NCBI GenBank assembly: GCA_028288995.1
Contig: JAQGHF010000001.1
Span: 1 to 52,701 of the forward strand
Reading direction: 5' to 3'
DNA from: Candidatus Saccharimonadota bacterium
GTDB taxonomy: Bacteria; Patescibacteriota; Saccharimonadia; Saccharimonadales; Saccharimonadaceae
Length of the DNA stretch: 52,701 nt
Below the pieces are notes generated by a model. It ran no database searches. It was not told the DNA's origin and saw nothing but the letters and a program-made list of their open reading frames with translations. A program made the position numbers and the translations under genes. Shown here piece after piece: positions 20,263-24,854 of the stretch. The stretch's first letter is position 1. Each line of letters starts with the position of its first letter.

Positions 20263-20455
20263 ATAAGTACGATACTTATGAAAATAAACACAAGCGAGTG
20301 GGAAGAACAGAACATGAATGAGCCTGCCAAAACTGTCGCACGGGTACCGATAACGCTTAACTAATAATAGAAATAATATCAATTAAATCGGTCGACACGT
20401 ACCCCGTTCTTGAAAAAGAAGTAAGACTTAGTAAGGTAGACGCCCTCATAGTAAT
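20220..20455 (+). other. Long leader region of unknown function upstream of the LysM-CHAP gene
   Basis: No convincing gene. It contains a perfect 7-bp inverted repeat ATAAGTA-cga-TACTTAT (20263-20279) and an AAGCG (from about 20291) with a matching CGCTT about 60 nt later that could close a stem-loop. It is A-rich otherwise. It does not match any riboswitch consensus I know well enough to name. Confidence 0.4.
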
Positions 20456-21625
20456 ATGAGCGGCAGGAGAACGATAATTCGTAATCAGATCTCAGGCAAC
20501 ACTGCCCAAGGATCCGTTGCAGCTGCCAAGCCGCAAACGCTCGTTCGACCCCGATTAGCGAAAGCTAAGGGTCGGATAAAATCGTCAACCATTGCCGTCT
20601 ACGCAAGTGTTTTTGTACTCCTCGTAGTACTTATTGCTATTGGTTACCGTTCACCTCAGCAGGTGTCAGGAGTTGCAAATGCTGCGCCTCTCACCGCGAC
20701 AACGCCAACATCTACTAACACGCCTACGGCAGTGAATGATGTCATTGCGTCAAATATTGCCGCAAATGTCGCGACAGCAACGAACCTTTCCGTTGCACCA
20801 TCGGTAACAAGCCTTGCAATTTCAACACAGATTGAGAGTGAACTTCCAAGCTCTAACGATTCTTCAATTTCTAAGCCTCAGATTATCCAAGTTTCATCTG
20901 CAAGCCGTAAGATCACGAACTACACAGTTGCTGCAGGTGACACGACAGATTCAATCGCAGCCAAATTTGGTATTACAAAGCAGACATTGAAATGGGCTAA
21001 TAACCTCAATACCGATAATCTTACTGTTGGTTTAAGCCTCGATATTCTTCCACGAGATGGTATCGCCTACACCGTGAAGGCTGGTGATACAGCCCAAAGT
21101 ATCGCTGATAAGTATAAGTCAGATGCTTCCCTTATCACGACGTATAACGACCTCGAGATCAGTGGTTTAACAACTGGTCTTAAAATTATCGTTCCAAACG
21201 GTGTTCTTCCTGGAAATGAACAACCTGGGTACGTTACACCTGTCCTTACGTATAGCTCTGGCAGCTATTACGCTGGCTACCGTGCTGGATCGGTTGGTAA
21301 CCGTTACGCGTATGGTAACTGTACCTGGTACGCGTACGAGCGTCGTGCAGCCATGGGTATGCCTGTTGGTAGCTTCTGGGGTAACGGTGGTTCATGGGCA
21401 TATAGTGCTCGAGCTGCCGGCTACGTCGTAAACAACGTTCCATCTTACGGTGCAGTCCTTGTTGAAGCTGGAAGTCCAGGTCACGTTGCTGTTGTCGAAA
21501 GCGTTGCTGATGACGGAACCATTGTGGTGAGTGAGATGAATAACGCCGCTTACGGTGGATTCAACATCATCAACAACCGTATGATTAGTGCCGGTCAAGC
21601 AACCTTGTACCAGTATATTCACTAG
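20456..21625 (+). CDS. LysM-CHAP peptidoglycan hydrolase
   Basis: 389 aa. A basic cytoplasmic N-terminus and one membrane helix (about 44-63) are followed by a Thr/Ser/Ala-rich linker. Two LysM peptidoglycan-binding modules come next, from NYTVAAGDTTDSIAAKFG and from AYTVKAGDTAQSIADKYK. The C-terminal CHAP amidase/endopeptidase domain has catalytic C289 (YGNCTWYAYE) and H343 (GHVAVVES), with a polar third residue likely in VSEMNN. It probably cleaves peptidoglycan peptides during division or growth, or acts on a host wall. It has its own promoter and a long leader; a terminator follows. Confidence 0.93.
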   Translation: MSGRRTIIRNQISGNTAQGSVAAAKPQTLVRPRLAKAKGRIKSSTIAVYASVFVLLVVLIAIGYRSPQQVSGVANAAPLTATTPTSTNTPTAVNDVIASNIAANVATATNLSVAPSVTSLAISTQIESELPSSNDSSISKPQIIQVSSASRKITNYTVAAGDTTDSIAAKFGITKQTLKWANNLNTDNLTVGLSLDILPRDGIAYTVKAGDTAQSIADKYKSDASLITTYNDLEISGLTTGLKIIVPNGVLPGNEQPGYVTPVLTYSSGSYYAGYRAGSVGNRYAYGNCTWYAYERRAAMGMPVGSFWGNGGSWAYSARAAGYVVNNVPSYGAVLVEAGSPGHVAVVESVADDGTIVVSEMNNAAYGGFNIINNRMISAGQATLYQYIH

Positions 21626-21659: not shown

Positions 21660-23000
<1,341 letters not shown>

Positions 23001-23018: not shown

Positions 23019-23047
23019 TTGACTTTTATATAACAAAGTGCTATAAT
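23019..23047 (+). promoter_or_regulatory. Near-consensus sigma70 promoter of the candidate RNA gene
   Basis: TTGACT (23019-23024), a 17-bp spacer and TATAAT (23042-23047), with an extended TGC before the -10. This is the best promoter in the window. Predicted start is near 23054. No open reading frame follows it. Confidence 0.85.
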
Positions 23048-23053
23048 GAAAAA

Positions 23054-23422
23054 GAATCAGTTGAAACACTTGTTTCCTGAGGAACATTCATAGCTAGGTA
23101 CATCAAGATTAAAAAACCACGGCGCTGCGCAGCCCAACTCCCCCAGTTGGAACGCTCGCCGTCGAACGTCACTTGGTCTTTCGACAAGCTCCCCCCTGGA
23201 GCTTGTCGGGGCCCCCGATCAAGTGGCGGAAATAGGAAAGGCGTGTTTACCCCGCCCGACCCCACGGTGGGGTGATGAAATGGCAGAGTCGCCCCCGACT
23301 CATTTGCCTACCGCTCGTCGGTATCATCACCCCTCCGTGGCACCCCCCACTTCATGTACCTAGCTATACTTTCTTTTTCATTAATCAATGTATACTTGAC
23401 GCGCCAGATGGCGTGTTTTTTG
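23054..23422 (+). ncRNA. Candidate structured non-coding RNA, unidentified class
   Basis: No gene is visible here, but the sequence is GC-rich and full of complementary arms. A 14-bp perfect helix (23090-23103 with 23354-23367), plus 3 more pairs after a mismatch, closes the core. Inside are: 23119-23124/23157-23162 around a CCAACT/AGTTGG hairpin; an 11-bp helix 23168-23178/23217-23227 containing a perfect 11-bp hairpin 23182-23192/23198-23208; and a 16-bp helix 23262-23278/23324-23340 closing a junction of two hairpins (23286-23301 and 23309-23323). A near-consensus promoter precedes it and a terminator follows at 23399. I see none of the conserved blocks of RNase P RNA, tmRNA or SRP RNA. 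The transcript class is unknown; the hairpins are read directly from sequence. Confidence 0.7.
23399..23422 (+). terminator. Terminator between the candidate RNA and sbcB
   Basis: Stem ACGCGCC/GGCGTGT (7 pairs, one G-U; 23399-23405 and 23410-23416) with an AGAT loop, followed by a T-run. The T-run leads directly into the TGT of the sbcB extended -10 box. Confidence 0.75.
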
Positions 23423-23423
23423 T

Positions 23424-23429
23424 TATGCT
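23424..23429 (+). promoter_or_regulatory. Extended -10 box of sbcB, leaderless
   Basis: TGT-TATGCT (23421-23429) ends 6 nt before ATG 23436. Confidence 0.6.
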
Positions 23430-23435
23430 AGATAT

Positions 23436-24854
23436 ATGTCTCAAACTTTTTTCTTTTATGACCTTGAAACCTCTGGACTTAGTGCACGTGATGATCGTAT
23501 TATGCAGTTTGCTGGTATTCGCACTACGATGGAACTCGAACCAATAGGCGAACCATATAATATTCTCGTCAAATTAAATGATGATACATTACCAAGTCCT
23601 GATGCATTGATGGTCACGAGTATTACACCGCAAGAAACACAAGCAGATGGTTACAGTGAAGCGGATTTTTCTAAACTACTTATTGACGAAATCTTTACGC
23701 CAGATACAATTACGGTTGGTTTTAATAATATTCGCTTTGATGATGAGTTTATTCGGCACCTTCTTTGGCGTAATTTCTATGATCCGTATGAGTGGTCGTG
23801 GAAAGATGGGCGATCACGTTGGGATATCCTTGATGTTGTTCGTTTGACTCGAGCGCTGCGCCCTGAAGGCATTGAGTGGCCATTCGTTGATGGCAAAGAA
23901 GCGAATAGGCTTGAACTGATCACGAAGTTGAATGGGATCGATCACCTTAAGGCTCACGATGCACTCAGTGATGTTGAGGCGTTGATTGCGGTTACAAAAC
24001 TGGTTAAGGATAATCAGCCGCAGCTGTATAGCTATCTGTTAAAGATTCGTGATAAAAAGGAAGTAAAGAAGCTAGTAAACCTTGAGGACAAGCAGCCGTT
24101 TGTCTATGTCAGCGGTAAGTTTAGCGTCGAGTTTCACAAGGCAACCGTTGCGTTTCCTTTGACAAGCGGTCGCAATGGAAATGTACTTACTTACGACCTT
24201 CGGTTTGATCCGACACCTTTTTTGAATCTATCACTGAACGAACTAGAGAAGCGTATGTTTGCGAGTTGGGAAGATCGTCAGAAAGACGATTTTGTGGCGA
24301 TTCCAGTCAAAGAAATGCAGTATAACCGCGCACCCGCTATTGCACCGCTTGGTGTCCTTGAACAAGCTGATGGTTGGAATCGTATTGGACTTACTGAGGC
24401 GATAATTACCGAGAATCGTAATAAATTATTATCTGTTCCAAGTTTTGCCGAAAATATTCGTAGTGTTCTTGAAAAACGTCCGGAATTTAAAAAGTCTCCA
24501 GATCCTGAAGCGCAGTTATATGACGGGTTCGTTGAGGGTGTTGATACGTTGCGCATTGAGAAGGTAAGACAAGCGGATGCACAGCAGCTCGCCGATCTAC
24601 ACCCTGAGTTTAATGATGAACGTTTATCACCACTTTTGCTTCACTATAAAGCGCGTAATTATCCACGAAGTCTCGCGGAAGACGAGGCAGTGTTGTGGGA
24701 GACGTGGCGCGCTGAACACATCACAAAGCAATTACCTGGTTTTGTAAAAAGATTACAAGATTTAAGTGCCACAATAAGCGATGAGAACAAACGTTTTGTG
24801 CTTGAAGAGCTGCAGCTATGGGCAGAAAGTATTGTTCCAACTGAAAACGATTAA
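23436..24854 (+). CDS. sbcB: Exodeoxyribonuclease I
   Basis: Single-strand 3'-5' DNA exonuclease of the DEDDh class. The catalytic acids are visible as YDLETSG (D9, E11), in GFNNIRFDDEF, and in the closing motif AHDALSDVEA (H and D). The ExoI-specific SH3-like and helical C-terminal domains appear to be present (SPLLLHYKARNYP is a typical ExoI segment). The length, 472 aa, matches the family. It would act in recombination and mismatch repair. Its TAA shares two bases with the stop codon of the convergent small gene. Confidence 0.94.
   Translation: MSQTFFFYDLETSGLSARDDRIMQFAGIRTTMELEPIGEPYNILVKLNDDTLPSPDALMVTSITPQETQADGYSEADFSKLLIDEIFTPDTITVGFNNIRFDDEFIRHLLWRNFYDPYEWSWKDGRSRWDILDVVRLTRALRPEGIEWPFVDGKEANRLELITKLNGIDHLKAHDALSDVEALIAVTKLVKDNQPQLYSYLLKIRDKKEVKKLVNLEDKQPFVYVSGKFSVEFHKATVAFPLTSGRNGNVLTYDLRFDPTPFLNLSLNELEKRMFASWEDRQKDDFVAIPVKEMQYNRAPAIAPLGVLEQADGWNRIGLTEAIITENRNKLLSVPSFAENIRSVLEKRPEFKKSPDPEAQLYDGFVEGVDTLRIEKVRQADAQQLADLHPEFNDERLSPLLLHYKARNYPRSLAEDEAVLWETWRAEHITKQLPGFVKRLQDLSATISDENKRFVLEELQLWAESIVPTEND

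Follow-up and report, generated by a model that had tools for sequence, protein, structure and literature searches.

A class of structured RNAs, probable from its architecture, between obgE and sbcB in Saccharibacteria

ROOL, GOLLD, HEARO, OLE and raiA RNAs are long, multi-branched and strongly structured, and the function of each was unknown at its discovery. RNAIII of Staphylococcus aureus is a large structured RNA with long-range pairing, which carries a small ORF and places C-rich loops on ribosome-binding sites. The 6C RNA is much smaller than the RNA considered here. The B11 sRNA, the 6C RNA of Actinobacteria, is reported to regulate gene expression and has hairpins with C-rich loops (PMC10470900). 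The DNA analysed in this study, a stretch of 52,701 nucleotides from the genome of a Candidatus Saccharimonadota bacterium (the window), itself contains a lysM-TM7 RNA (RF03005) at 20322-20469 (97.7 bits), which overlaps the start of a LysM-like ORF at 20456. The RNA of interest lies further along, between two genes that we take to be obgE and sbcB, names that follow an earlier sequence-only reading of the window. The gap and its flanks are laid out as follows.

21702 to 23000, plus strand: ORF of obgE (GTPase), found in 17 of 17 genus genomes
23019 to 23047, plus strand: sigma-70-type promoter TTGACT-17-TATAAT with a TG extended -10; 11 of 12 bases agree with the consensus, and the spacer is 17 bp
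23054 to 23425, plus strand: predicted transcript of about 350-370 nt, its start expected about 7 nt past the -10
23398 to 23424, plus strand: intrinsic terminator, a stem (23398-23417) conserved in relatives and then a T run
23436 to 24854, plus strand: ORF of sbcB (exodeoxyribonuclease I-like), found in 188 of 198 family genomes

The sequence-only reading had proposed a strongly promoted, highly structured RNA at 23019-23422, and the present analysis confirms that observation overall, with its coordinates right. The promoter it called near-consensus is one of six TTGAC-N15-TG-N-TATAAT sites in the genome (836,540 bases), against 0 for a reversed-pattern control, and it recurs at the equivalent place in the obgE-sbcB gap of most relatives; the terminator is likewise as described. 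GC content, said to be raised, is 0.59 across 23090-23367, compared with an average of 0.451 (sd 0.033) for the window, and this core is the highest-GC 278-nt stretch of the window, equalled by no other. A DNA search finds the core in single copy in the genome, so that it is not a dispersed repeat. From the strength of the promoter we infer that the RNA is highly abundant. A -10-like TATGCT at 23424-23429, 7-12 nt before the start codon of sbcB, suggests that in the window and in relatives sbcB may have its own start and a nearly leaderless mRNA. A role for the window RNA as a leader of sbcB is unlikely, because the terminator intervenes, because sbcB keeps its position in genomes that lack the RNA, and because of this -10-like element.

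Searched with cmscan against Rfam 15, the check that the earlier reading had called for, the window RNA matches no family at the gathering threshold, and at E<=5 the locus gives weak, unrelated chance matches only. Across the whole window the only matches are lysM-TM7 RNA and two tRNAs, and among 19 related loci no family appears except for one tRNA in locus L207. The statement that the RNA is not RNase P RNA, tmRNA or SRP RNA holds. Canonical copies of the first two lie elsewhere in the window genome, G000 (RNase P RNA, RF00010, at G000:C5:344316-344649, 259.5 bits; tmRNA, RF00023, at G000:C5:347541-347919, 101.6 bits), and bacterial SRP RNA gives no signal at the locus at E<=5. ARAGORN finds no tmRNA in the window and, run on L128 with a tRNA-like or antisense-tRNA element in mind, nothing there. 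Because the small bacterial SRP model RF00169 has no match in 17 of 17 genus genomes and the 6S RNA model (RF00013) has none in the window genome, the SRP and 6S slots look open, as they would if the locus encoded a strongly diverged housekeeping RNA of one of these kinds. That explanation is nevertheless extremely improbable: at the locus neither 6S RNA nor SRP RNA gives a signal with E-values up to 5 admitted, tmRNA and RNase P RNA both have canonical copies elsewhere, and the RNA is missing from the gap in two near-complete genomes considered below. The predicted fold of the window RNA, moreover, is multi-branched and not a rod, whereas 6S RNA forms a long rod with an open bubble that resembles a promoter. 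Its parts are these.

23057 to 23080, plus strand: 5' hairpin UCAG-UU-GAAAC-ACUU-GUUUC-CUGA with a 5' UU bulge, from the predicted fold; it recurs in the leaders of relatives
23090 to 23107, plus strand: 5' strand of the closing helix, P1, from the P1 pairing tests
23119 to 23162, plus strand: hairpin A, with apical CCAACU-CCCCC-AGUUGG (23134-23150), from the fold; its outer helix is common to genome G001
23167 to 23228, plus strand: hairpin B, from the fold, with outer helix 23167-23178/23217-23228, inner helix 23182-23192/23198-23208 and loop CCCCU
23262 to 23340, plus strand: last domain, supported by covariation, with stem 23262-23278/23324-23340 and an inner C-loop hairpin GAGUCG-CCCC-CGACUC (23286-23301)
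23343 to 23348, plus strand: CCCCCC linker joining the last domain to P1, one of five C5+ runs counted against shuffles
23350 to 23367, plus strand: 3' strand of P1, from the P1 pairing tests

The minimum free energy of this fold is -155.2 kcal/mol, whereas dinucleotide shuffles average -104.4 +- 6.1 (z -8.3), and 0 of 100 shuffles is as good. Because the opposite strand folds equally well (-161.5 vs -155.2), the direction assigned to the RNA rests on the promoter and terminator. The 14-bp closing helix claimed at 23090-23103/23354-23367 is indeed perfect, and reaches 18 nt when extended (94%); the claim of further helices is likewise borne out by both helices of hairpin B and by the stem of the last domain (17 nt, 94%). 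The polarity of G-U pairs in the helices was considered as evidence and rejected, since the pair scoring favours G-U by construction. The RNA has five runs of C5 or longer, compared with 1.4 in shuffles (0 of 300 had as many), and no G5+ run; three of the five sit in or at hairpin loops of the predicted fold. Among relatives the enrichment recurs in L012 (P 0.013), is not significant in L013, and is not seen in several noncoding members (L076, L080 and the second unit of L141). Apical loops rich in C recur in both of the nearest relatives that bear the RNA.

A DNA search of the genus with the window RNA recovers fragments in few genomes only, and relatives were therefore sought by synteny. Fifteen of the 17 genus genomes have an obgE-sbcB gap of 437-1211 bp with such a unit; the window genome belongs to the same genus as Candidatus Microsaccharimonas sossegonensis (genome G001, locus L122). 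In G007 the gap is shorter than 75 bp. G006 is a very close relative, its SbcB being 93% identical over the first 150 residues; its gap has lost the promoter and core but keeps the last part of the 5' hairpin and P1's 3' strand. Both of these genomes are near-complete. Combining the family sample with a contig collection gave 68 nonredundant loci with obgE and sbcB adjacent, of which 22 have gaps below 130 bp (empty), 34 have a long gap with a detected promoter, and 12 have a long gap in which no promoter passes the threshold used. Several of those 12 (L048, L054, L159, L164 and L061) still show the P1 plan on reading, and one of the 34, L072, is doubtful, having been counted through a promoter match near sbcB; the RNA is therefore present in roughly 40 of the 68 loci, a figure that, like all unit counts here, depends on thresholds. 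The relatives' RNAs are mostly unalignable, their sequence turning over far faster than the flanking genes. The sequence-only reading had offered an abundant housekeeping-type or large regulatory RNA. The structured RNA gene of no recognized class stands, and the housekeeping part does not: about a third of the gaps are empty, turnover is rapid, and, decisively for a strict housekeeping role, so near a relative as G006 has lost the RNA.

Presence and absence at one site, tandem copies there (three units in L128; two each in L021, L141 and L165) and the hypervariable core would also suit an element that works as DNA, its inverted repeats forming folded single-stranded DNA, for instance a recombination site for cassette turnover. 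We think this very improbable, for nearly every unit carries a strong promoter and a terminator in the same orientation, no recombinase is seen, and the 29 matches to the P1-leader motif in viral contigs are promoterless and apparently within coding sequence, as expected by chance. Compared as DNA with phage and plasmid records, the window RNA has no match.

What the units share is a plan: promoter, 5' hairpin, P1 of 12-18 bp, long 5' hairpin, variable core, long 3' hairpin and terminator. In most units the 5' hairpin has the 5' UU bulge, often with a GAG...CUC inner stem, and a spacer like ACATTRAC precedes the 5' strand of P1, which is often ACAAGTTGGATA yet differs freely among units. The long 3' hairpin has a purine-rich 5' strand and a pyrimidine-rich 3' strand, and P1 is completed after it, ahead of the terminator. 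Because the P1 strands were chosen for complementarity, it is not the raw P1 score but a control, in which 5' strands were paired with the 3' strands of other species, that serves as evidence: pairing averages 11.1 within species and 7.0 between species (sd 1.4), and 16 of 30 units rank first in both directions. With hand-anchored strands, the unit's own pairing scores above all cross pairings in 23 of 28 cases, and 0 of 2000 permutations reach the observed sum. Aligned with G001, the window RNA has 86 consensus pairs, nine of them changed on both sides and none broken; two outer pairs of hairpin B covary, and the 5' hairpin is unchanged or G-U consistent. Across three near species, 7 of the 17 pairs of the last stem are doubly changed with 96% of cells paired, a degree of covariation reached by 1 of 500 shuffles and lost when the columns are slid by 1-3. 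The check for covariation in related gaps thus came out in favour of base pairs under selection. The two nearest RNA-bearing relatives fold with z of -12.7 and -7.8, and the median of 50 units is about -7. A covariance model of the promoter and 5' leader, built from 27 units and yielding E-values that are rough, has its best match in the window genome at the window locus, and recovers units outside its build set (the second of L128 at 39.5 bits, the first of L141 at 44.3, and L131 at 37.4); its matches elsewhere in genomes are weaker than at the locus. The window RNA shows the promoter, UU-bulge 5' hairpin, covarying P1, long 3' hairpin and terminator that define the proposed P1-closed class between obgE and sbcB, and we hold with high confidence that this is a real class of structured RNA.

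Some matches of the leader model elsewhere in genomes deserve record. L338, L341, L344 and L345 share a well conserved leader that contains TTAACAARTCRGATC, and TTAACAARTCRGATCATTACAGYGCATGTC or a near variant; it precedes orphan ORFs that differ among these loci, and is related to the class's own 5' leader. L346 is predicted to be another P1-closed transcript. Because of these five loci, the leader may be used beyond the RNA class. The strong extended -10 promoter, by comparison, was rejected as a marker of the class, since it also drives typA-like and rpsB-like genes and many orphan proteins. In the window genome such promoters at G000:C1:26640, C2:160255, C4:64803 and C5:263658 (L086, L087, L089 and L091) drive orphan proteins with third-position GC of 0.64-0.70; a Pfam scan of the L086, L087 and L089 proteins found no match, and the L087 mRNA has complementary 5' and 3' ends. 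GC-rich codons of "alien" appearance were likewise set aside as a mark of foreign ORFs; because the rpsB-like gene has a similar third-position GC of 0.62, they may mark high expression only.

The window copy itself is quite probably noncoding. A 74-aa ORF on the minus strand has no conserved frame in relatives, a 91-aa ORF on the plus strand owes its matches to out-of-frame overlap with sbcB, and a scan of the window RNA for Shine-Dalgarno ORFs and mini-ORFs, as expected of an RNAIII-like dual-function RNA, found none. Such ORFs are also lacking in the two nearest RNA-bearing relatives (L012 and L013, where an MKWR-like reading falls inside the last stem), in L063, L076 and L080, and in units 2 and 3 of L128.

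Many other members of the class appear to be translated, judging by their reading frames. Shine-Dalgarno mini-ORFs of at most 12 codons number 40 in the units against 11.9 +- 3.5 in shuffles, and those ending in TAG number 24 against 3.3 +- 1.8. Two C-termini recur before the stop, SGF[T/I/E] and [KR]-R-[HYC]-x. The codons of SGFx vary, with Ser as TCN and AGY, both Phe codons, and several Gly and Thr codons, so that the peptide is conserved and not the RNA alone; these mini-ORFs possibly encode stop-codon arrest peptides, and they occur beyond the obgE-sbcB locus too (L202, L203, L207). SGF(T/M/K/I/E)-stop mini-ORFs, nearly always with UAG, are seen in L202, L203, L204 and L207 and in units L047, L056, L077, L078, L126, L134 and L165. 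The second type, M-x-[KR]-R-[HYC]-x-UAG, is seen in L014, L016, L018, L022, L024, L126 and L134, examples being MKKRHM, MVKRHR, MMRRHC, MMRKRYI, MMKWRHS, MKRCR and MRRHM, and its UAG often lies at the base of a GC-rich hairpin. The cassettes of L141 and L167 encode secreted-looking small proteins with a common KGQDW motif and no Pfam match.

These frames raise the alternative that the locus serves as a cassette for expressing short-lived small proteins and mini-peptides at a high level, the window copy being a structured mRNA that has lost its frame and retains little function. The excess of Shine-Dalgarno ORFs in the scaffold of many relatives speaks for it, as do GC-rich ORFs of 25-55 aa in units (with longer ones in L046, L050, L141 and L167) and the other strong promoters of the genome, which drive orphan proteins without a Pfam match. 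It is at odds with the compensatory change that keeps the structure among the noncoding G000, G001 and G012, and with the fact that most noncoding members, at z of about -8 to -16, are more structured than most coding ones; we judge it unlikely.

The reading we prefer, held tentatively, is that the window carries a genuine noncoding RNA gene, a member of an undescribed Saccharibacteria class between obgE and sbcB. The RNA would be produced in quantity from its strong promoter, P1 and the 5' hairpin would protect its ends, and it would act in trans, setting the translation of mRNAs whose G-rich ribosome-binding regions pair with its exposed CCCCC and CUCCCC loops, as proposed for 6C/B11 RNA or RNAIII. 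The antisense action of the C-rich loops, taken by itself, is possible but rather doubtful. The repeated C5 loops and the end-protecting architecture would also suit a structural or sponge RNA that binds ribosomes or a protein (a KH or cold-shock protein with affinity for poly(C), for example), with mini-ORF members parking ribosomes at UAG, and the local structure at mini-ORF UAGs is indeed somewhat more stable (26-nt MFE -5.0 vs -3.4, p 0.025). That hairpin effect is modest, however, the partner is hypothetical, and the window RNA is without a mini-ORF by the scan used, so that we consider a sponge improbable. Since the scaffold of relatives also carries apparently translated mini-ORFs, we infer that the class is regulatory or dual-function, not housekeeping. 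A broader and rather speculative possibility, which we would not call likely, is a scaffold at a fixed site that keeps its closing helix and end hairpins, replaces its core, and switches between a structured RNA and a polycistronic mini-ORF RNA whose SGFT-UAG and KRH-x-UAG peptides may arrest or park ribosomes. Such an RNA, for which no counterpart is described, would regulate ribosomes or translation in epibiotic bacteria of ultra-small size.

Although the genomes of Saccharibacteria are very small, many of them keep a strongly promoted structured RNA of 350-900 nt at one site. If the promoter is a true guide to its abundance, this RNA would be a prime candidate for a main riboregulator of these organisms. 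The conserved endings of the mini-ORFs in relatives offer a testable, possibly new ribosome-arrest or peptide-signal element. The complete genome of TM7i carries a member of the class (L131).

A large structured RNA is, as a kind of thing, already known. A search of open-licence papers turned up no account of an RNA like this in Saccharibacteria, and what is apparently new is a class anchored to a locus that keeps its architecture, replaces its sequence, and switches between noncoding and mini-ORF forms. The lysM-TM7 RNA is likewise a structured RNA of this lineage and lies in the same window, but Rfam lists it as cis-regulatory, it stands at the start of another gene, and its model has no match at the RNA locus. 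The 6C/B11 RNA has C-rich hairpin loops in common with the window RNA, although the locus has no 6C match at E<=5, and we know of no closed, multi-branched P1 architecture in 6C RNA. RNAIII, as generally described, resembles the window RNA in being a large structured RNA with long-range pairing and C-rich loops; it differs in that the window member is without a supported ORF, and a relation in sequence is not expected. ROOL, GOLLD, HEARO, OLE and raiA, none of which cmscan matches here, conserve sequence, whereas this class conserves mainly its architecture; such replacement of sequence would hide the class from sequence-based searches and so explain its absence from Rfam.
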